Part shown: piece by piece, positions 4,210 through 21,054 of the stretch | Layout: each line of letters opens with the position of its first letter | Position numbering within the stretch: the stretch's first letter is position 1 | IMG/VR virus record: IMGVR_UViG_3300035070_000219 | Location: 1-27,400 of that record | Strand: one strand, 5' to 3' | DNA length: 27,400 bases | Origin: a virus | Program-made: the position numbers and the translations under genes | The notes under the pieces: model-generated | The model's database searches: none | What the model was told of the DNA's origin: nothing | The model's input: only the letters and a program-made list of their open reading frames with translations

Positions 4210-4383
4210 TTACCATTTGCCAATTGGACATTTTGCAGATTTCAGCCTTGTTTTAAGTTTCATTAAGCACATGCACTTTTTGCATTGTGCGATTGATTTT
4301 CTATACCATTCACATTGCTCACAGATTGCTATCCGTTCTTCTGGATACAAAATGTAATTAACTCTCACTTCTTCTTCGAGCAT
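4210..4383 (-). CDS. Small six-cysteine protein, probable zinc-binding knuckle
   Basis: A 57-aa gene. The ATG at 4383 overlaps the stop of the fibre-tip gene by one base (TAATG), and the TAA is at 4210-4212. The protein begins 'MLEEEVRVNYILYPEER' and has cysteines at residues 21, 24, 34, 37, 39 and 52: CEQC, then CKKCMC, then a C-terminal 'KSAKCPIGKW'. Two CxxC pairs separated by nine residues suggest one bound zinc, with C39 and C52 extra. The pattern RIAIC..C........CK.C.C.M..K..L..A.CP.GKW is, as I recall, widespread in marine phage genomes as an unknown. Coupling by TAATG and uninterrupted codons argue that it is real. Placement between fibre tip and fibre-associated protein hints at a tail or assembly role, but nothing in the sequence proves it. 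Confidence 0.78.
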   Translation of the reverse strand: MLEEEVRVNYILYPEERIAICEQCEWYRKSIAQCKKCMCLMKLKTRLKSAKCPIGKW

Positions 4384-5360
4384 TAAGTATACGCTCCGTG
4401 AATTGTCCCAGAGGCTGTACCTATAATTGTATATGCTGATACTCCTGAGAATGTAATTGCTCGACCTGCGGCACCACCAGCCGAACCAGCGGCTCCATTT
4501 GTGTGATTTCCGTTTGCGCCTGTAGAACCAGTAGCTCCTGCGTTTCCAAATGAAGCGCCGTTTCCACCCGACCCACCTGTACCAGCATTATTTCCAGCAG
4601 AAGAACCAGATGAACCGTTTGTTGCTGATTGGCCGTATCCTTGACCTACGCCACCAGCACCACCACTGGTGCCATTATAGTAGGTATAAACGTAACAAGT
4701 GGTAGTATAAAAAGTACAATTATCTTCGCCCTGTTCACAACACGAACCCTGATGACAACTTGCAAAGTTAGAACGTGCGCTCGCAGTACAATATTGACTG
4801 GGATGCCCACCAAAATAATCACAGTTCTTACATTGAGTACCAACTGAACCTGAAACTTTTCCCTGACCGCCTGTACCTCCTTGGCCTCCACCAGATCCAC
4901 CTCCTGAGATAGAAGATCCAGAAGCCATATTGATTGTTACGCCAGTGGATTGGATTGTCATGGCTGTGCCGCCAGCACCTCCATTTGCAGAACCGCCTGT
5001 TCCTTGGATTGCACCAGCGTGGTCAATAATAAGGGTTCCACCCATACTAGCTGGCACTGTTATAAGACCCATAGTAGTGCCAGAGTTAATGGTATATCTT
5101 TTAGCGGTACTTCCTGTCCAGCTTCCAGAAGTGTTAGCATCAAATAGAGTTTGTAGGTTAGCACTAGATGCCGCAGAAGCAGTCAAGCCTAGCTCACTAG
5201 ATTTACCAAACCCATCGGACATATCAATAGCACCATCGGAAATACCGAATAAACTACGCACACTCGAACTACCCATATTAATTGAGGCAGTAGCTGAATT
5301 ACCAAGTTCTACGTTTACTTGTTGTAGAGAAATTGTATTCCCTGCGGATGGTAATGCCAT
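4383..5360 (-). CDS. Gly-rich, Cys-cluster tail fibre tip or adhesin candidate
   Basis: A 325-aa virion protein, probably the distal receptor-binding part of a fibre. The N-terminus (MALPSAGNTISLQQVNVEL, then 'SVRSLFGISDGAIDMSDGFG') resembles the attachment region of many marine phage fibre proteins. From about residue 115 the chain is dominated by glycine motifs (GGSANGGAGGTAM, SGGGSGGGQGGTGGQG, and later GGAGGVGQGYG and GTGGSGGNGASFG). These alternate with a 46-residue insert holding eight cysteines (C177 to C222, including CKNC and SCCEQ). Such Gly-rich blocks with variable loops between them are the plan of T-even gp38-type adhesins, whose glycine strands pack as polyglycine-II helices. 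Here the loop would be disulfide-rich or metal-bound. The gene starts just after the S74 fibre gene stop with GCGAGGT upstream. The adhesin call is inference from architecture and position. Confidence 0.75.
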   Translation of the reverse strand: MALPSAGNTISLQQVNVELGNSATASINMGSSSVRSLFGISDGAIDMSDGFGKSSELGLTASAASSANLQTLFDANTSGSWTGSTAKRYTINSGTTMGLITVPASMGGTLIIDHAGAIQGTGGSANGGAGGTAMTIQSTGVTINMASGSSISGGGSGGGQGGTGGQGKVSGSVGTQCKNCDYFGGHPSQYCTASARSNFASCHQGSCCEQGEDNCTFYTTTCYVYTYYNGTSGGAGGVGQGYGQSATNGSSGSSAGNNAGTGGSGGNGASFGNAGATGSTGANGNHTNGAAGSAGGAAGRAITFSGVSAYTIIGTASGTIHGAYT

Positions 5361-7619: not shown

Positions 7620-8228
7620 TTAAGTGTCGTAAGTAGCGGACGGCCTCATTACCTGAGAAATCCCCGATTGTTCCGCAGCGTTTGCTTGTTCCTGTATTTC
7701 AGTGAGTAGTGAAATGAACTTCTGCTCGAAGACAGCTGTGCGTTCATCTAAATAGTAATCTGCACTATACCCAAGGGCTGCATAACAGATTAAATCTGAA
7801 GCGATCTTAGCCAGAGTACTTTCATCAGAGTCCGCAGTCATCTTTTGAAACTCTCCATAGTAATCAATTAAAAGATTCCCAGAACTTGGATATGGATACA
7901 GTTCTAGCCTTTCTCGTACCCTCGTAAAGAACTTAGGAGTACCCTCCTCTTGCGCTTCTGAGATAGTATTAAACTCATGATGTGGCAATTTTACGAGATG
8001 GGTGTAGCCATGCGATATTGAAATTAACTCCAACATATCGGAAGGCACAATTACAAATTTAACTTTATTGGTTATAGCAACCGTTAAAGTCCGTTCCATT
8101 GGTGGTATCCTAAGCTGACGCTGGATGCGCTGAATACCCTGATCTAGGAAAGTATTTGCTAGGGCATCTGTACAGTCACTTCTATTCAGAAGAGCTTTAA
8201 AATGCGCCCTCAGATCTCCATAGTTCAT
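7620..8228 (-). CDS. Head-tail adaptor protein, SU10-like
   Basis: A 202-aa protein expected to form the ring below the portal that joins head and tail. The N-terminal helical start (MNYGDLRAHFKALLNRSDC, then 'FLDQGIQRIQRQLRIPP') resembles the adaptor family typified by phage SU10. The middle is a beta-rich section ('FVIVPSDMLELISISH', 'RVRERLELYPYPSSGNLLID') that begins after the conserved RQLR/PP turn. The C-terminal half is helical (IASDLICYAALGYSADYYLD, FEQKFISLLTEIQEQANAAE). AAAGGAAA lies about eight bases before ATG. The gene order capsid, 105-aa protein, adaptor, fibre fits a head-completion role. The assignment is from recognised sequence style and gene order; it is most likely an adaptor and less likely another connector ring protein. 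Confidence 0.8.
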   Translation of the reverse strand: MNYGDLRAHFKALLNRSDCTDALANTFLDQGIQRIQRQLRIPPMERTLTVAITNKVKFVIVPSDMLELISISHGYTHLVKLPHHEFNTISEAQEEGTPKFFTRVRERLELYPYPSSGNLLIDYYGEFQKMTADSDESTLAKIASDLICYAALGYSADYYLDERTAVFEQKFISLLTEIQEQANAAEQSGISQVMRPSATYDT

Positions 8229-8240
8229 CTTTAATTTCCT

Positions 8241-8558
8241 TTAATTAAAAGCTTTCTTTTCGGTTGTCATAAAGTAATCGAGGTTTTGGTCTCGAAGTCT
8301 TTTGACAATCTCTTTTCCTGAGACTTCATAAATGTTGAAGCCTTCGCGCATCCACTGATCAACCACAGCTGTTGGGATCGATGCTACACGCATAAATTCT
8401 TTCTCTCTCTGCTTGCCAGAGTCATTGCGTTCATCCTTCAGACCATCCAACCATTTCTGGTCGATATTCTGAGTGTTCTTCATTGTCAGACCATCGGCTT
8501 CATCAAGCCAGTCTGTATTCACGTCGTGCATAAACGTGTTGTCCGTCTTCTTAGTCAT
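8241..8558 (-). CDS. Conserved-type small virion-region protein, unknown
   Basis: A 105-aa, highly charged, mostly helical protein without membrane segments. The first half is polar and probably flexible (NTDWLDEADGLTMKNTQNID). The second half has a compact motif, 'MRVASIPTAVVDQWMREGFN' followed by IYEVSGKEIVKRLR. The RVASIP..VVD.W..EGF stretch is familiar to me from marine podoviruses, where it occurs between capsid and adaptor genes, but it has no assigned role. The start is well supported by AAAGGAG seven bases upstream, the strongest ribosome-binding site in this part of the window. It is separated from the capsid gene by two hairpins, so its dose may differ from that of the capsid protein. 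A head-completion or capsid-decoration role is possible but unproven. Confidence 0.75.
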   Translation of the reverse strand: MTKKTDNTFMHDVNTDWLDEADGLTMKNTQNIDQKWLDGLKDERNDSGKQREKEFMRVASIPTAVVDQWMREGFNIYEVSGKEIVKRLRDQNLDYFMTTEKKAFN

Positions 8559-8584
8559 CTAAAATCTCCTTTGAAAATTAGGGT

Positions 8585-8635
8585 GTCAGAATGCTCCCTG
8601 GGAAGGAGAGCACAAAACCAGGGAAACACTCTGAC
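8585..8635 (-). terminator. Long hairpin downstream of capsid gene
   Basis: The arms are GTCAGAGTG plus CCCTGG on the 5' side and CCAGGG plus CATTCTGAC on the 3' side. They form a stem of roughly 15-17 pairs (a few G.U or bulged) around a 16-base pyrimidine-rich loop. On the minus strand it is followed by ACCCTAATTTTC, a weak T-run. It may be a partial terminator or a 3'-end stabiliser that raises capsid mRNA relative to downstream genes. Confidence 0.6.
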
Positions 8636-8642
8636 GATTTCT

Positions 8643-8668
8643 AGCCCCAGGTAATAAAACCCAGGGCT
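8643..8668 (-). terminator. GC-rich hairpin just after capsid stop codon
   Basis: AGCCCTGGGT and ACCTGGGGCT form a 10-pair stem (two G.U) with a six-base loop, starting nine bases after the capsid stop codon. No T-run follows, so by itself it is more likely an mRNA 3'-end barrier than an intrinsic terminator. It forms a tandem pair with the hairpin at 8585-8635. Confidence 0.55.
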
Positions 8669-8677
8669 AAAACTTGT

Positions 8678-10082
8678 TTATGACAATCCAGTGATCATGC
8701 CGGAGTCAGCAAATGAGTTGTGCTTCAAACTCAATTCTCCAGTCACCGAATGCTTATCTGCGTCACCAGTTTTCGCTAGAAGTGTTCTTGCGAAGCCTCT
8801 GAGTACACACGTTTTAAACATTGCCGGATCGATTAGGAATGCGTGAGTAGTCATTTGGTGTCTGTTAAGGACAACTTTGTATTCGCCATATGGAGAAACA
8901 TAGAGGTCAATCGCATTGACTAAAGATTTAGCCATATCGAAATTTCTCTGCCTACCGCTGGCGGCTGCAAAGCCAGCAACGATTTGCGCATCCGCCGGTT
9001 TAATCATGAACACAGATGGATCTGATCCATTAGTGTAACACGTTTGGCCTAAAGTAAGCAGCTTAGCCTCTGTAAGAGGGTCGGTTGCATTACTTCCCTG
9101 ATCAACAGCAGTAGAGATCAACTGATCTATACTTGCCATTTCTCTGGCTGTCGAAGCATTACCAGCTGCGGCTGCATTAGAAGCTCCACAGAAAGCAAAC
9201 TCAACGTCTCTTTTGACGTTCTTTAGAGTTCGACCCATTTGGTCATTTATGTTCATCTAAGTGCGTTAAACTTAGACCGCCTTATTAATTTAAGACAGCT
9301 AACGATTACTCGTTAGATCGGACTATATCACATCAGCGATTTGCTGATCGACGCGCTTCCACTCACTTGAGTGTACTTCCTTTCGGAATAGTCTCTGCAC
9401 CTTCCTTGATTTCTCAAAGCTTGGCTCATGATTGTCCTCGGCATTACCCGGTGGGGTTTTCCATGAGTTCACGTCGTTTATACTGCGCTTCCATTAATGG
9501 GTTGTTAACGCAGTTTCTTTCGCACGGCCATAGGTTTTCACTGCATCAGAAGTTTCGGAGATTTTAAAAGTCTCAGAAATAATCTGACAAGTACCAGTTC
9601 TTTCCGTGGGGTTCAAAAGCGTAATGTCGGACTGATCCGCACCCTCCACTTTTGCGTTTGCATATGTTATGTAGAGTTCTTTATCTCTACTCTCAATCTT
9701 TCAACTGAGTATCGGACTATATCTTCTCCCTTAAAATATAAGGGGTCATGCGCTCTTGGATTTTCATCACCCGGTCTGGGTTGTATAATCTAGTCTCTGA
9801 ACCTTACACTCATTCCTGAGTGTCTTGGCTGCTGATTGGCGTATCTGTTAAGACTTAGCTTTCCAGCAATTCACATGATTGCAACTAAACATTACTGTTT
9901 AGCGGCCCAAAACTTTAGGCAGCTGATCGTAAACTATCTTCAAGGTAGCTAAAAGTTCTGTTGTGAACCTTTTCACTTTTGAACATAGTGTACATAGGGG
10001 TGTCCGAAGGCGTAATTGTAACTATGACGTCACTAACATCCTCAGCTCGCCCGATTTGGTTATATGTGGAAAATAAAGCGAT
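8678..10082 (-). CDS. Major capsid protein, SU10-like HK97 fold, split by two group I introns
   Basis: The coding sequence is join(9917-10082, 9508-9660, 8678-9243) on the minus strand: 885 bases, 294 residues plus TAA. Exon 1 encodes 'ALFSTYNQIGRAEDVSDVI', then 'TITPSDTPMYTMFKSEKVHN', as in SU10-type capsid N-termini. Exon 2 encodes 'SNAKVEGADQSDITLLNPTE' to 'VKTYGRAKETA'. Exon 3 encodes 'YQMGRTLKNVKRDVEFAFCG' (the spine-helix region) to 'ADSGMITGLS'. Both junctions fall after the first base of a codon (T|CA for Ser56, T|AC for Tyr107). The only in-frame codons ahead of the conserved N-terminus, after the upstream TGA, are AAG GAA TAC ATC ATC. The start is therefore probably ATC at 10082, with AAAGGA seven bases upstream. 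Without splicing the frame ends at the first junction (T plus AA gives TAA). The gene follows scaffold and portal, as expected. Confidence 0.88.
9244..9507 (-). ncRNA. Group I intron 2 in capsid gene, no internal ORF
   Basis: A 264-base self-splicing intron candidate. P1: exon end ACTGCGT (9508-9514) pairs with GCGCAGT (9482-9488), with U.G at the splice site. P3: CGACGTG (9470-9476) with CGCGTCG (9349-9355). P4: CTCATG (9462-9467) with CATGAG (9425-9430). P6: GCC with GGT, capped by CTTTGA-GAAA-TCAAGG, a GNRA loop. P7: GACTAT (9388-9393) with ATAGTC (9321-9326), inside the typical R 'GGTGCAGAGACTA' and S 'GATATAGTCC' strings. P8: ATCAGC with GCTGAT (9332-9348). P9: CTAACGA-GTAA-TCGTTAG. The last base is G, and removal restores codon TAC and the capsid frame. 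There is no homing endonuclease. It shares core strings with intron 1 but has different peripheral sequence. Confidence 0.9.
9661..9916 (-). ncRNA. Group I intron 1 in capsid gene, no internal ORF
   Basis: A 256-base self-splicing intron candidate. P1: exon end AGCTGCCT (9917-9924) pairs with GGGCCGCT (9901-9908), with U.G at the splice site and one mismatch. P3: TCATGTG (9872-9878) with CGCATGA (9746-9752). P4: TTGCTG (9864-9869) with CAGCAG (9829-9834). P6a: ACACTC with GAGTGT. P7: GACTA (9791-9795) in R string 'GGTTCAGAGACTAGA' with TAGTC (9715-9719) in S string 'AAGATATAGTCC'. P8: CCCTT with AAGGG just before S. A 3' hairpin GTAGAG/CTCTAC precedes the terminal G. The 3' exon start CAAA complements TTTG in the guide region, a P10 candidate. 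Splicing joins GCC TCA AAC and restores the frame. The first two intron bases complete a TAA with the last exon base, so ribosomes stop at the junction in unspliced RNA. Confidence 0.91.
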
Positions 10083-15154: not shown

Positions 15155-15599
15155 CTTCGATTGTAGGTAAAAGTGACGCTAAGAAATCCTCAGCTTTGCC
15201 GACAGTAATGTCAGACTTCGCTGCTGGTTTAGATCGACAGAAATCTAGGATTAATCGTGCAGCTGCTAATCGTTCTCTGGTTTCACCAGGTGTTCGAACA
15301 ACTTCTATTGCTGTTGATAGAGCTTCCTTGGAATACTCGTCATCGATATTAAATTTCTCTGCCATAGTTTCTACAACCTCTCTAGCTTCTTCTTTTATTT
15401 TTGCACGGATTGGAGTTATTTCTGCTAAACGATAACCATCTGGGGTTCCTTTCGGTCGCCCAGGGTTTTTCCTCTTTTTAGTGGACCATTGTCGCCTTAA
15501 CGCTCGACCTTCTTCGGTCTGCATAAGGGTACTGAAGTAGTTATTCTTCGGAGCCTTCTGGGGCTCTTTAGCTACTTTCGGAGCTGACTTCTTACGCAC
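15093..15599 (-). CDS. Terminase small subunit candidate
   Basis: A 168-aa protein immediately before and overlapping the large terminase. The N-terminus is strongly basic (MRKKSAPKVAKEPQKAPKNN; RRQWSTKKRKNPGRPKGTPD), suitable for DNA binding. The centre is a helical oligomerisation-type region (IRAKIKEEAREVVETMAEKF, 'GETRERLAAARLILDFCRSK') that resembles phage small terminases. The C-terminus is acidic ('FLASLLPTIEDEDGAK') and could contact the large subunit. GTG at 15599 overlaps the end of the 1820-aa gene by eight bases. The call relies on position, charge pattern and the ERLAAARLILD-type helix; no definitive motif exists for this fast-evolving family. Confidence 0.78.
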   Translation of the reverse strand: MRKKSAPKVAKEPQKAPKNNYFSTLMQTEEGRALRRQWSTKKRKNPGRPKGTPDGYRLAEITPIRAKIKEEAREVVETMAEKFNIDDEYSKEALSTAIEVVRTPGETRERLAAARLILDFCRSKPAAKSDITVGKAEDFLASLLPTIEDEDGAKIGQEISRSTKKVIN

Positions 15600-18500
15600 T
15601 CAGAGCACCCATTTGCGGACTAAGAGCACCTGGGGGTGGCGGTGGTTGTCTAAGTCGTTCCTCTTCTTCCTGTTCCATGTTCGCTAAAACACCCATAACG
15701 ATTGCCATAATGGTTGCGAGTGGGTAGCTGTAGAACGTCACAGGGTTGTTGCCGCCCATTTTATTAAATACTTCCCGTATGGCTCTAGCAGTTTGGGGTG
15801 CAACCTTTTTAATAAGCTTTGGATTGATAAAGTATACCCACAGTGGGTCTACTGCCATTTCGGATACCGTACGCAAGTACGTACGTCTAAACTGGTTGTT
15901 TATTTCTTGTAACTTAGTGTCGTCAATCCTAGATCTTAAAGCTGGGTTAGCTTTTATGTGCTCTGCTACCTGACGTAACGGGCGTACACCAGTAGTCCCT
16001 AATTCGGGTCGCCTGGCTATTTCAACGTCAATGTTTTCTTGTAGGTTTGCAATTTCTTGGAGTACTTCATTTTCTCTACCGTGATTTTCAATAGCGTCTA
16101 AAATGAAATCCTCAAAAGAACCAACTTTAACGCTTTCCAATGCTTGCTCGGCAAGTACAAATGGGTTTTTCGCCTCTCTGTATTCTGCGCTTGGAACTCT
16201 ATCTACACGTTGGATTGCGAGACCATGTGCAATCTCATGCATTAAACTGGTGAATTCTTCTACAGAGCGTACCGCTCCATTGAACATTGGGTGGTTAGCC
16301 CCTTGTTTTAAGACCCTCACGTTTCCTTTGGTTGTCGACCTAATAAGCCCATCCGCACCCTTTACGTCAGCCATACCAGCGTATTCGCCAGTTGTACCTT
16401 CCGGCATCTCATTTAGCAATGTGACTGTAAGGTTAAGTCCCCTCGCCATTTCTAGAGCTTCACCTAAAGTGCCAATACCATCTTCTAAGTCGCCACCCGG
16501 CTTTCCAATCTCAAAAACCTTCTTAGTTGGTTCGACGTATGGCTTTAGGCGTCGTATGCTCGGAGGATTGGTCCTCGGTTGATTTCCTTCCGGGCTGGTA
16601 AGGGCTGGTCCCCTGGATTGCCTTGTAGGGTTTCCTGGTCCTTCTGCCGTGATTGGGCCAGCTGCACTAGCCCCTGGATAAAGTCGTCCATCTTGTTGTC
16701 GGGTATCTGGTCGACTACTGACTTCTCCGTCTCGACTTGGGTCGCGGAGTGCTTCTTCAATTTGTCCATCTGTTATCCCTTCTTTTTGCGCTAACAATGT
16801 AGCTGCATCTTGGTAGTCTGTGTCTGCCCCATTACCGGGGTCTACACCTAGCTTTTTATACAATAATTTCTCTGGATACCACATCAAAGCTTGGAAATCG
16901 GCAGTTTCTATGTCGATTCCTTGTTCTCTTAGCTTTTCCCGTGCCTTTTCGACAACTTTTCGCATATATGGTCGATCTGGGCCCGATGGTTGGGCTTGCA
17001 TTTGAGGGGAACTATTTAGTACATGAGTTCCAGTAGATTTGAACAATTGAGGCTTCGGTGGGTTCTTTTTATTATTGGCTTTTTGATAATCTCTAAAGTA
17101 TTTCTGCCATCGTTTATCTAAAGCGAAAATAAAGACGTCCATTCTTTGTGGATCTTTGTATAATCCTTTTTTAGTCTCGCCTAATTCTTTTAAAGTATCT
17201 CGAACAAGTTGATTTTCAACTTTTCCACCCTTTTTGATCTCAGTGGCAATTTTATCTCTTGTTTTTGCCATCACTGTATCTGTCTTCTTAGACTCAAAAG
17301 GGCGACCAACCATTCTGTTCCATGTCCTCATCCACCATAAATCCATAGTCAAAGGATTGTAGTTTCCACGAATGTTTTGATAAAACCCTTGGCCTATTTT
17401 TGGGCCTAAGATGTAAGAACCCTTTACCTTAGTATCTACCCTTTCTTGACCGCCTACCTTAATTTCAGTTTTGTTATTAGCATTAAAGCGATCAATGTAA
17501 TCTTTTAGTTCTTTTACTGTAAAATCTTGGTCTAAGAATTGTTGAATAGATATATTAGAACCACTGCGACCAAAGGCATTGTAAAATTTAAAAGCTGATC
17601 GCATTGCTTCAGCTCTGTCACCACCTTTGTTAAAGTTTTCTGGTAATTTACCAGTGTCCATGCCTGTTCTGAAAACTTCTAATGCTAGATTGAAGTTACC
17701 TGTAACCGCTTGTCCGTTTGAAGTTACGGCTAGGGCGAAATCAAACATTGCCTCAGCATCGTCTGATTGCATAATTCTAGGCTCAATTATCGATACAATC
17801 TTTTTGGCAGCTTTAATCTTAGCATCATACCAACCGATAGCGTTTCCATCAGACTCCAAGTTTCTCATAGCTTCTGCAACCATGATATCAGCGATTATAG
17901 GTATATTCTCTTCTGTATACTCATATGGATCAGTACGACCTGTAGCTTTCTCCCAGCGATCTTGAAGAAACTGAGCTGCGTCTTCTTTTGATCTTTTTAC
18001 TTCTGGTTTCCATTTAGGGTCACGCATTGCAGCGACTTCATTTTCATCTGGTAGAATATCGAGTGCTGTTGGCATTTGATTTAATGCTGGCCCGTCGCGT
18101 GGTATTGGTGGAACTTTAGCTTCACGAATTTTGGTAGGCTCTACTGGGTTCTCTGGGGTGTCAAACTCAACTTCATCTTCAACAATTCCTGGGGGTTTCT
18201 GAAAAGCTGGTGCATTTGGCAGAACATCACTACTTTTAGTAAGGTTTTCATATTGATTAAGAGCTGTTGAGTTATCTGTTGTCTGATCGAAAACAGGAAT
18301 ACTCTGGTCAACAACCGGGGGCGTGGTTGTATCTACCTGTTCACCCTGGAACTCATTCGGTTTTTTACTGTATTGTTGCCGGACGATACGATCGACATAT
18401 GGCTTTAGATAAGACTTAACGGCTTTGTTGGGTACACCCTCGGCTTTTGCAGTCTCAACAATTTCATTAGCAGCACTTTCTGGATCAACTCCTAGGTTTA

Positions 18501-21054
18501 AACCTAAGCTGTTCAAAGCTTTTTCTAAAGGAGCTCTGTAGGGTTCCACTGAGCTGTTGGTTTTAGCTCTGTTTGTAAGCTCAGCTAGTACTTTCTTATT
18601 ATCTTCAATTCCTCGAGCGATCGCTGGTGTTTCTAGTTGTGTGTTAGCTGGGCCACCCTGATTTGGGTTTCCTGAGCGTGGTGGTGTTATGCCAAGCTCT
18701 TCAGCCATACCAGCAACGTGCCTAATGACATCATTTAGTACCGGGTCACCTTTTGGACCAACTCTACCGCCCTTACCAACACTTTGTTGATAGTCCGTAA
18801 TACCATCTTTCATACGTTTTGATAATCGAGGAAGACGTTTTAAAATTCGAAGGATAGAAGCAACTTGAGCCCTATTAAGACCAGTAGCATTTTCTAAGGT
18901 TCCTTGGGGGCTATCTGGGTGCGGAGGTAAGTTTCTTTTAGCAGCTTCTTTTGCATCTGCTTCTTGTTGTTCAATTAACAAGCGTTTCTCGTAAGCTTCT
19001 TTTGCTTTTGCTATCTCTTCGTCATATGCTTCTTGTTCTTTGAGGAACTTGTTTTCTTGGTCTTTGAGAGCTTTTGCTGCAAGTATGGATGGACCTGTTG
19101 GGGCATCTAGTGGGTCACCCTTTATGTTGTCTTTTATGTATTTATCTAAAACAGAATATGTACCACGTTTTTTATCAATAGCTTTTCCTACTCTTGTAAT
19201 AGCAAGCTGCCCCAAAATAGAAGCTCCATAAGTTTGCGACGCAACGCCAAGAGATAAAATAGGTTTTATTGAGCTTTTAACTTGTTCGCCTATGTTTTGA
19301 TTTTTACCACCAAGTCTACCCGAAACCGAAAACGTATCAGTAAAAGTAGAAAGCTTTCCTTGTAATCCTTTGCTATCTAGCTGAGTGAGAGCATCAAGCA
19401 TCATCAACGTATTTATGAGGTTTCTACCTTCTTGGGTGTTACCAACTAAAGCTTCAAGAGCATCATAATTTCCTCGACCAACCTGACCTTTTGTCTTGTT
19501 ACGGCCCTCAAGTCGAGCCACTTGTGCTTTTATTAAAACTTTTAATTCTTCTAAACTTTCAACTTGTTTTTCGTTAAGTGGCCCACCTTTTTGACCAAGT
19601 ATCCCGAACATTTTGTTCATTTCTTCTAGAAGCCCAAGGTGTGCATTATCTAAGACAATTTTTGCACCTTTTTTAGACTCTGGATTAATATCCATTAAGT
19701 CAAAAGGCACACCATCCATTCCTCCTGCATCAGCCAAATCTTTTAATATATTAGCTAAACTGGTGTAAGCTTTGGCTTCTAGTGGTGTTAAGTCTTTTTG
19801 AGATTTTAAAGAAATAGTCCCGTCTTTGTTGGTGATGTAAGGTGACTTAATTCTATTTTTAACTTTACCAGCACCAACAATCCCAGCCTCAAAGGGAGCT
19901 TGTCCAAATTCTGCTAGACCCTCGAGCACAATTTCTCTGGGGTTCAATGGTTTACCAGTTAGGTCTTGAGTAGCAAGTTGGGCCGATGCTTCTCCACCAG
20001 AGCCAGCTGCTGCGTTAACAGCAAAGTTTTTCATGATACCTTTACCAGCAGCAGACATACCTAAGACTTCAAAAAGGGTAATCATTGTAGCTCGAGTTGC
20101 ACCAACTTTGGCTGCATCACGCATTAAGTCTCGATCCGCTAAAAGAGCTACCGCTTCTTTTTTTGATAGATTTTTATTGATCCCGTTGTTTTGCAAAAAT
20201 TCGTTAACGCTTGGTCCGTACTCTTGTAAAAACGTACCAGCACCTAAAACCGAAACACCAGCGGCTGGGTTTTTTGTAAGGGCAGATGTTGCTAAACCAG
20301 CAATAATCTGTGGAGATGATTGAACCATGATCTCTGTCATGTACATCCCAAAGCCAGCTGGGTTTTCAAAAGCATCACTTAATAATTGCTTTACGCTATT
20401 ATCTCCATGTTCTTCATGCATCTTCGAAAAAGACTGAGCTGTTGAGTTCTGAGCTATTGAAGCTGCGGCTGCATTTAGCTCATTTGCTTTGGTTATGTTT
20501 TTTACGCCAGACTCTATAACTGCTTCGCGTTTATTAGGGTCTTCACTTAAAGCTTTGGCATTAGCTAGTTTTGTTTTGTAGATATCTAAGAAATTCTGGG
20601 TTCTTGTAGGTCCATAACCCATTTTTGTTAATTCGTTGGCAGCACCCTCTGGAGTGCTTAAATCTGTACCTCGAGACTTTCTTAAATTTGCAATTGCTTC
20701 GTCACTTAACCCAGAATGTTCTTTGAACGACTCCATGAGTAAGTTGTTTTCACCATATTCTCCAGACAGGGTGGCCTCTTCACCAAGTCTACTTGCAGCA
20801 GACCCAGCTATAACAGTAAAGGGTGTAGAAGCCGATCTTAAAAGACCACGCTTTAACTCACGTCCTAATAAAGTTCCTTCGGGGTTGTTTGCTCCTAGAA
20901 CTTGTTCATCAAATACACCACCTCCTCCGAATGGATTGTTCTCGCGTTCTTTTGCTTTCTTGTATTGATCAACTGCAAAGTTAAAATCTGGAGTGCCTTT
21001 AAGATTTTCGTTGTTTAGCAGCCAACTACCTATTTCTTTTGAAGTTTTTGCCAT
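15592..21054 (-). CDS. Giant ejection-type virion protein with HExxH metallopeptidase motif
   Basis: An 1820-aa protein, the largest in the window, likely carried in the virion and ejected into the host. A hydrophobic-amphipathic region at about 235-275 ('MTEIMVQSSPQIIAGLATSA') could insert into membranes. Residues about 680-740 are charged coiled coil and about 960-1060 are Pro/Glu-rich linker. A compact domain at about 1075-1265 contains 'GPKIGQGFYQNIRGNYNPLT' followed by MDLWWMR, reminiscent of a helix-hairpin-helix-like phage domain (tentative). The C-terminal part has 'EEFTSLMHEIAHGLAIQRV', with zinc-type H1606, E1607 and H1610. Then comes a hydrophobic helix at about 1773-1791 (YPLATIMAIVMGVLANM) and an acidic, poly-Pro tail. 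The peptidase could open the cell wall or process virion proteins. GGAGG lies 11 bases before ATG. It is adjacent to two smaller ejection-type proteins and to terminase. Confidence 0.82.
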   Translation of the reverse strand: MAKTSKEIGSWLLNNENLKGTPDFNFAVDQYKKAKERENNPFGGGGVFDEQVLGANNPEGTLLGRELKRGLLRSASTPFTVIAGSAASRLGEEATLSGEYGENNLLMESFKEHSGLSDEAIANLRKSRGTDLSTPEGAANELTKMGYGPTRTQNFLDIYKTKLANAKALSEDPNKREAVIESGVKNITKANELNAAAASIAQNSTAQSFSKMHEEHGDNSVKQLLSDAFENPAGFGMYMTEIMVQSSPQIIAGLATSALTKNPAAGVSVLGAGTFLQEYGPSVNEFLQNNGINKNLSKKEAVALLADRDLMRDAAKVGATRATMITLFEVLGMSAAGKGIMKNFAVNAAAGSGGEASAQLATQDLTGKPLNPREIVLEGLAEFGQAPFEAGIVGAGKVKNRIKSPYITNKDGTISLKSQKDLTPLEAKAYTSLANILKDLADAGGMDGVPFDLMDINPESKKGAKIVLDNAHLGLLEEMNKMFGILGQKGGPLNEKQVESLEELKVLIKAQVARLEGRNKTKGQVGRGNYDALEALVGNTQEGRNLINTLMMLDALTQLDSKGLQGKLSTFTDTFSVSGRLGGKNQNIGEQVKSSIKPILSLGVASQTYGASILGQLAITRVGKAIDKKRGTYSVLDKYIKDNIKGDPLDAPTGPSILAAKALKDQENKFLKEQEAYDEEIAKAKEAYEKRLLIEQQEADAKEAAKRNLPPHPDSPQGTLENATGLNRAQVASILRILKRLPRLSKRMKDGITDYQQSVGKGGRVGPKGDPVLNDVIRHVAGMAEELGITPPRSGNPNQGGPANTQLETPAIARGIEDNKKVLAELTNRAKTNSSVEPYRAPLEKALNSLGLNLGVDPESAANEIVETAKAEGVPNKAVKSYLKPYVDRIVRQQYSKKPNEFQGEQVDTTTPPVVDQSIPVFDQTTDNSTALNQYENLTKSSDVLPNAPAFQKPPGIVEDEVEFDTPENPVEPTKIREAKVPPIPRDGPALNQMPTALDILPDENEVAAMRDPKWKPEVKRSKEDAAQFLQDRWEKATGRTDPYEYTEENIPIIADIMVAEAMRNLESDGNAIGWYDAKIKAAKKIVSIIEPRIMQSDDAEAMFDFALAVTSNGQAVTGNFNLALEVFRTGMDTGKLPENFNKGGDRAEAMRSAFKFYNAFGRSGSNISIQQFLDQDFTVKELKDYIDRFNANNKTEIKVGGQERVDTKVKGSYILGPKIGQGFYQNIRGNYNPLTMDLWWMRTWNRMVGRPFESKKTDTVMAKTRDKIATEIKKGGKVENQLVRDTLKELGETKKGLYKDPQRMDVFIFALDKRWQKYFRDYQKANNKKNPPKPQLFKSTGTHVLNSSPQMQAQPSGPDRPYMRKVVEKAREKLREQGIDIETADFQALMWYPEKLLYKKLGVDPGNGADTDYQDAATLLAQKEGITDGQIEEALRDPSRDGEVSSRPDTRQQDGRLYPGASAAGPITAEGPGNPTRQSRGPALTSPEGNQPRTNPPSIRRLKPYVEPTKKVFEIGKPGGDLEDGIGTLGEALEMARGLNLTVTLLNEMPEGTTGEYAGMADVKGADGLIRSTTKGNVRVLKQGANHPMFNGAVRSVEEFTSLMHEIAHGLAIQRVDRVPSAEYREAKNPFVLAEQALESVKVGSFEDFILDAIENHGRENEVLQEIANLQENIDVEIARRPELGTTGVRPLRQVAEHIKANPALRSRIDDTKLQEINNQFRRTYLRTVSEMAVDPLWVYFINPKLIKKVAPQTARAIREVFNKMGGNNPVTFYSYPLATIMAIVMGVLANMEQEEEERLRQPPPPPGALSPQMGALSA

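Follow-up and report, generated by a model that had tools for sequence, protein, structure and literature searches.

The major capsid gene of a phage lineage with SU10-type heads is interrupted at many sites by short group I introns. These are very probably genuine ribozymes and members of a capsid-gene intron swarm that moves by DNA recombination, its sites being set by a match to the intron guide. The window, by which we mean the whole stretch of DNA analysed, is a 27.4-kb uncultured virus record (IMG/VR), probably from an uncultured marine phage, and there is good support for reading the two inserts in its major capsid gene as group I introns without an ORF. In phages, group I introns have mostly been portrayed as passengers of homing endonucleases in genes for DNA metabolism, and the spread of endonuclease-free group I introns is a long-standing question. 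The introns of this lineage are themselves of a known kind; what is new is that they are gathered in a single gene of one lineage, where they occupy many sites and have no recognised endonuclease. Such short introns come and go between close relatives within an essential virion gene. In the many pairs of occupied and empty alleles that the lineage supplies, endonuclease-free spread can be tested. Virome surveys with the capsid gene as marker can also overlook or mis-call genes that are split by introns.

The two introns of the window

The features considered here are listed below; L323 is the closest relative of the window.

13560-11521, minus strand: portal gene, SU10-type head module
11139-10114, minus strand: scaffold gene, SU10-type head module
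10082-8678, minus strand: whole capsid gene including both introns, SU10-type head module
9917..10082, minus strand: capsid exon 1, codons 1-55 and base 1 of codon 56, apparent start ATC (spliced frame, SU10_MCP match)
9661..9916, minus strand: group I intron 1, 256 nt, ORF-less, site 56.1 (RF00028, 92.9 bits; spliced-alignment boundary; 99.6% identity in L323)
9905..9908, minus strand: intron 1 IGS core GGGC, pairing with exon end GCCU (9920-9917), U.G at the 5' splice site
9791..9801, minus strand: intron 1 R strand, 5' side of P7 (RF00028 match, anatomy)
9714..9725, minus strand: intron 1 S strand, 3' side of P7 (RF00028 match, anatomy)
9508..9660, minus strand: capsid exon 2, 153 nt (spliced frame, SU10_MCP match, spliced alignment)
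9244..9507, minus strand: group I intron 2, 264 nt, ORF-less, site 107.1 (RF00028, 55.8 bits; spliced-alignment boundary; covariation in 12 sequences)
9482..9488, minus strand: intron 2 IGS GCGCAGT, 7-bp P1 with exon end ACTGCGT (9514-9508)
9389..9400, minus strand: intron 2 R strand (RF00028 match, anatomy, covariation)
9320..9329, minus strand: intron 2 S strand (RF00028 match, anatomy, covariation)
8678..9243, minus strand: capsid exon 3, ending in the stop codon (spliced frame, SU10_MCP match, spliced alignment)
8896..8897, minus strand: empty site 222.2, where L323 has a third group I intron (258 nt, L323:9907-10164, 88.1 bits)

The original prediction had placed two group I introns at 9916-9661 and 9507-9244 and had named an Rfam search as the check. 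In that search (cmscan), both matched RF00028 above its gathering score of 50 bits, intron 1 at 9926-9692 on the minus strand (92.9 bits, E 5.9e-23) and intron 2 at 9590-9299 on the minus strand (55.8 bits, E 8.1e-12); no other Rfam match was found in the whole window. The RF00028 model sets the 5' end of intron 2 too far upstream, inside exon 2, and this boundary is fixed by sequence and protein evidence. A spliced-alignment program was written for the analysis, with a profile built from 31 relatives whose capsid gene is uninterrupted, and it demanded of the splice sites only that the 5' exon ends in T and the intron in G. Run blind, it placed the introns at 9916-9661 (256 nt) and 9507-9244 (264 nt), in phase 1 of codons 56 and 107, thereby returning the predicted junctions, phase and spacing of 153 nt.

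The joined frame of 294 codons matched Pfam SU10_MCP (PF17236) at 4.3e-74 over residues 7-293, spanning both junctions, across which SU10-like sequence had been predicted; it also matched PHROG 1328 at 2e-74 over residues 1-293. The expected 294-codon frame was thus continuous and of SU10 type once the introns were removed, but its count begins at an ATC and not an ATG, and the range 8678-10082 first given is that of the whole capsid gene, within which the introns lie. The apparent ATC start (10082-10080, minus strand) is preceded by a good Shine-Dalgarno sequence and recurs in L323 (L323:8700-8702), while L003-L006 have TTG there and L077 and L253 have ATA. A non-canonical ATC start is odd for a capsid gene that is expected to be highly expressed. 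Without splicing, the frame meets a stop immediately in intron 1 (GCC TAA) and, in intron 2, four codons in, so that unspliced RNA codes for a 55-residue fragment only. For an SU10-type capsid protein to form, both introns would have to leave the late capsid mRNA themselves.

Both introns have P1 with U.G, P3, P7, P8, a P9 hairpin and the R and S strands, the R and S strings being found as predicted. The fold of intron 1 has a basis of four sequences only. Intron 2 and its 11 site-mates share a conserved core of P3, P4, P6, P7 and P8 with strong covariation. In the site-107.1 structure (12 introns, with P7 added as a pseudoknot), 99.2% of cells were paired, as compared with 82.1% after shuffling and 35-44% when the structure was slid; double-sided changes were present in 34 of the 59 pairs, as compared with 19.5 after shuffling. 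Since the structure was derived from the same alignment, the paired percentage is favoured and the double-sided changes are the stronger evidence. Two hairpins lie between R and P3' in the site-107.1 introns; subgroup IA2 (phage type) is marked by extra hairpins P7.1/P7.2 between P7 and P3, and these introns may belong to it.

The window and L323 are 94.9% identical over 7.3 kb. Their introns are nearly the same, at 99.6% identity for intron 1 and 99.2% for intron 2 (251 of 264 nt aligned), and the exons have 27/166, 13/153 and 72/563 mismatches (82.7-94.5% identity). The upstream gene is 98.3% identical (1.7% mismatch) and the region just downstream of the capsid gene (8100-8677) about 99%; across 8100-10080 the capsid exons form an island of 8-17% divergence between well-matched flanking genes. 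Third codon positions of the spliced frame hold 73 of the 112 exon differences, a distribution which, as far as sequence comparison can tell, places the spliced capsid frame under purifying selection. In the stretch bounded by introns 107.1 and 222.2, L004 is the better match to L323, at 89.6% as compared with 82.7% for the window. Recombination of capsid alleles thus appears to take place here, and the introns may serve as junctions for it.

Introns across related capsid genes

Four capsid-based IMG/VR scans and one genome-contig scan were de-duplicated to 195 distinct capsid gene regions, a sample gathered by similarity rather than as a census and made up mostly of metagenome fragments; L323 was found later and lies outside the counts. 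Fifty-two of these genes were interrupted, 45 by one intron, six by two and one by three, giving 60 introns at 13 sites. Such an arrangement, originally described as unusual, is so among phages at large but not within this lineage, in which one to three introns were present in roughly one in four of the capsid genes sampled. Sites are given as codon.phase in the L003 frame, with gene counts in brackets.

Sites 7.1, 17.0, 19.2 (15), 23.2 (2), 25.0 (2), 51.2 and 56.1 (2)
Sites 87.1 (7), 107.1 (14, the window and 13 other sampled genes), 113.2, 222.2 (12), 225.1 and 273.2

Removal of the introns restored the exons exactly at all 13 sites in the 52 genes, and intron-bearing loci of relatives had RF00028 matches wherever they were scanned. 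In each of the 60 introns the last base is G, and every 5' exon ends in T, both being demands of the spliced-alignment program. Conservation at the insertion sites did not significantly exceed that in the remainder of the protein (P 0.10). An apparent 5' bias of the sites proved to be an artefact of querying with the C-terminal exon; an N-terminal query added 222.2 and 225.1. Two 'introns' of L039 had no Rfam match, were taken as a frame error and were dropped.

Intron lengths were 232-285 nt, with one exception of 519 nt at site 107.1 (L210:2477-2995). This intron holds a 93-codon ORF whose start resembles a signal peptide (MKHTILFIMLLWSSQAIA). No match to it exists in Pfam, and cargo other than an endonuclease would be odd. 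The ends of a 40.7-kb contig, G011, overlap within the capsid gene (L222 is the end and L051:1-546 the start) and are 96.6% identical, one with the 222.2 intron and the other intron-free, which suggests that both capsid alleles were present in one sample. The sole locus from the genome-contig scan, L300 (PBDH01000050.1), is an intron-free capsid gene of the lineage on a contig binned in a gammaproteobacterial MAG; it is likely to be a free virus in the bin and is possibly a hint to the host.

RF00028 was searched for in 78 whole records and the window (1.89 Mb, of which the capsid gene makes up roughly 4%). All 41 introns found lay in the capsid gene, as checked against locus coordinates, in a search that would miss introns too degenerate for the model; the records were chosen for holding the capsid gene, a choice that does not favour intron absence elsewhere. 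Mobile RNA elements thus have a hot spot in the capsid gene, with introns at 13 sites there and none elsewhere where searched. No group I introns were present in the five nearest GenBank phages examined (capsid 31-37% identical).

No ORF within the introns was recognised as an endonuclease, the 93-aa ORF of L210 included. Profiles for GIY-YIG, HNH and HNH_3 had no match in 50 records of the lineage, nor had LAGLIDADG_3 in 25. The near-complete relative G014 encodes a T7-like RNA polymerase, a helicase-primase, endonuclease I and an integrase, with no homing endonuclease among the Pfam families listed (25 of 37).

Patchiness, exon matching and local exon divergence

Intron presence was patchy. 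On the capsid protein tree, the fewest changes needed were 13 for the 15 carriers at site 19.2, 11 for the 12 full-length carriers at 107.1 and 9 for the 12 carriers at 222.2, and most carriers have intron-free neighbours. Introns were more alike than exons in 267 of 270 same-site pairs (introns >70% identical); ribozyme constraint may contribute to this high identity.

The exon sequence that precedes an intron matches its guide. At site 19.2, the final six exon bases were GGACAT in 14/15 intron-bearing genes as compared with 14/162 intron-free genes, and at 107.1 they were CTGCGT in 12/12 as compared with 27/165; intron-free genes have many synonymous variants at those 6-mers. A P1 of at least 6 pairs could be formed by 74% of distinct combinations, as compared with 7% at control sites. 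Codon 56 is Ser (TCA) in the window and Ala (GCA) in L003-L006, and P1 requires that T. A GCCT/GGGC match is common to several sites (25.0, 56.1 and 87.1).

Near-identical pairs of genes revealed exon divergence beside the intron. Between L118, with a 19.2 intron, and L113, with none, 14 of 885 exon positions differ, and every one of these lies in the 51 nt upstream of the intron; there is one difference in the 800 nt upstream of the gene and none in the rest of the gene. In L108/L107, 8 of 8 exon differences are likewise within 51 nt upstream, with more differences upstream of the gene. Of the 10 differences in L094/L191, seven fall in the 47 nt that follow the 87.1 intron, a polymorphism that is invisible from the last exon alone, and 8 of 18 in L293/L292 lie within 30 nt. 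When 21 pairs were pooled, 96 exon differences were within 15 nt of the site, as compared with 33.5 expected (P 5e-5), and the excess beyond 9 nt was not significant (P 0.08-0.14). It follows that exon adaptation to the intron guide probably accounts for part of the signal, and we claim co-conversion only for the named near-identical pairs, on which, few as they are, the long conversion tracts rest.

Intron sequences mostly group by site, with 18 changes over 13 sites; the 56.1 intron of the window is on a very long branch and its placement was not used. The two 23.2 introns (L109 and L110) nest among the 19.2 introns with support 95/93. Site 23.2 is 12 nt downstream of 19.2, with an identical GGACAT exon end and the same guide, GTGTCC. 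Such an arrangement suggests that the exon match guided a hop, a candidate short-range transposition that fits reverse splicing and ectopic DNA conversion alike. Whether site 19.2 was colonised twice gave a p-AU of 0.087.

Spread of the introns and comparison with known systems

In the explanation that we favour, short ORF-less group I introns would keep entering, leaving and re-entering the major capsid gene of the lineage. They would spread as selfish elements through DNA recombination between co-infecting phages, with gene conversion of a short stretch of flanking exon, and usable sites would be set by a match of roughly 4-7 nt between the exon and the internal guide of the intron. The identity of the introns, exon continuity, the many sites, the confinement to the capsid gene, patchiness, exon matching and local exon divergence are direct observations; splicing in vivo and the agent that initiates movement are what we infer. 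This initiator might be a free-standing nuclease acting in trans ('collaborative homing'), encoded outside the examined records or belonging to an unrecognised family, or might be nothing beyond the phage's own recombination machinery.

Collaborative homing proper is the more specific version of this explanation, in which a free-standing endonuclease of other phages or of hosts would cut intron-free capsid sites. The patchiness and the short one-sided tracts fit such a route, which is known for ORF-less phage introns (PMC3984707), and a distant SU10-like phage, MW202481, has an annotated HNH gene near its capsid gene. The 13 sites would demand many specificities or a relaxed one, however, and with GIY-YIG, HNH and HNH_3 absent from 50 records and LAGLIDADG_3 from 25, we regard this version as plausible but on balance doubtful. 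The same want of endonuclease genes would favour spread mainly at the RNA level, in which excised introns would reverse-splice into guide-matching capsid mRNA, be copied to DNA and be recombined in. The nesting of the 23.2 introns in 19.2, 12 nt apart with the same GGACAT and GTGTCC, and the GCCT/GGGC match at 25.0, 56.1 and 87.1 would agree with this, and restriction to one gene would follow if the capsid mRNA is, as presumed, the most abundant late transcript. Yet a reverse transcriptase would be required, the introns cluster for the most part according to site and not genome, as in ordinary homing, and the diverged exon tracts beside them point to DNA conversion. RNA-level spread as the main route is therefore unlikely, and there is an equally small chance that the lineage is a natural phage case of RNA-level group I transposition, with endonuclease-free introns hopping within a single late gene.

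It had originally been proposed that capsid output could depend on splicing efficiency, ions or guanosine, and the 55-residue product of unspliced RNA would be in keeping with this, as would T4 splicing, which needs translation and follows growth state (Sandegren and Sjoberg 2007, in PMC3073962). An in-frame stop just past the 5' splice site is a common group I feature, however, and a need for upstream translation is common in phage group I introns (PMC3073962), so neither lends special support to regulation. A conserved switch would be expected to keep its site; here no site is conserved, near-identical capsid genes lack the same introns, and related genes with and without introns coexist. 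We consider a regulatory function very improbable. Still less credence can be given to a decaying or mis-assembled gene, with non-functional inserts or an artefactual frame break. The non-canonical ATC start would suit it, but it is already contradicted: both structure and start recur in L323, an independent contig, and the covariation, the purifying selection in the spliced frame and the exact restoration of exons at 13 sites in 52 genes all argue against it.

Mycobacteriophage LittleE (Cluster J) likewise has a group I intron in its major capsid gene; that intron is about 0.8 kb and carries its own HNH gene, and its splicing is supported by the size of the capsid protein and N-terminal sequence across the junction (PMC3706429); an intron in the capsid gene of lactococcal Tuc2009 is cited there as a precedent. 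LittleE is one phage with one intron, whereas the present introns are mostly 232-285 nt, have no endonuclease ORF, number up to three per gene at 13 sites and lie in an unrelated capsid family. Several group I introns in one phage gene, as here, are known from Twort and the Bastillevirinae (Landthaler and Shub 1999, cited in PMC11878797). Those of the Bastillevirinae are mostly in DNA polymerase genes, and also in terminase and RNR genes, with a mean of 802 nt (PMC11878797), in contrast to the capsid-only, mostly minimal ribozymes of this lineage. The Jug huge phages likewise have a swarm of short (about 206 nt) group I introns, with metatranscriptome splicing for 37/76, but theirs are 360-402 kb genomes with introns in many genes and hundreds of endonucleases (PMC12363816). 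Here the genomes are about 40 kb, one gene is affected, none of the endonuclease families searched was found, and splicing is predicted from sequence. PMC3984707 describes how ORF-less group I introns can be mobilised by free-standing endonucleases, and also reverse splicing, which has been proposed without direct experimental evidence. Our introns resemble those of the first kind in being ORF-less and apparently mobile, but a partner endonuclease was not found among the four families searched. A literature search, with subscription papers outside it, did not find a capsid-restricted, multi-site, endonuclease-free intron set described, and such a swarm appears to be undescribed.

Two further genes of the window drew attention. 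A glycine-rich tail-type protein (4383-5360, minus strand) has a cysteine-rich insert (CKNCDYFGGHPSQYC...CCEQGEDNCTFYTTTC). A 1820-codon ORF without a Pfam match (15592-21054, minus strand) adjoins a small terminase candidate and probably encodes an internal virion protein.
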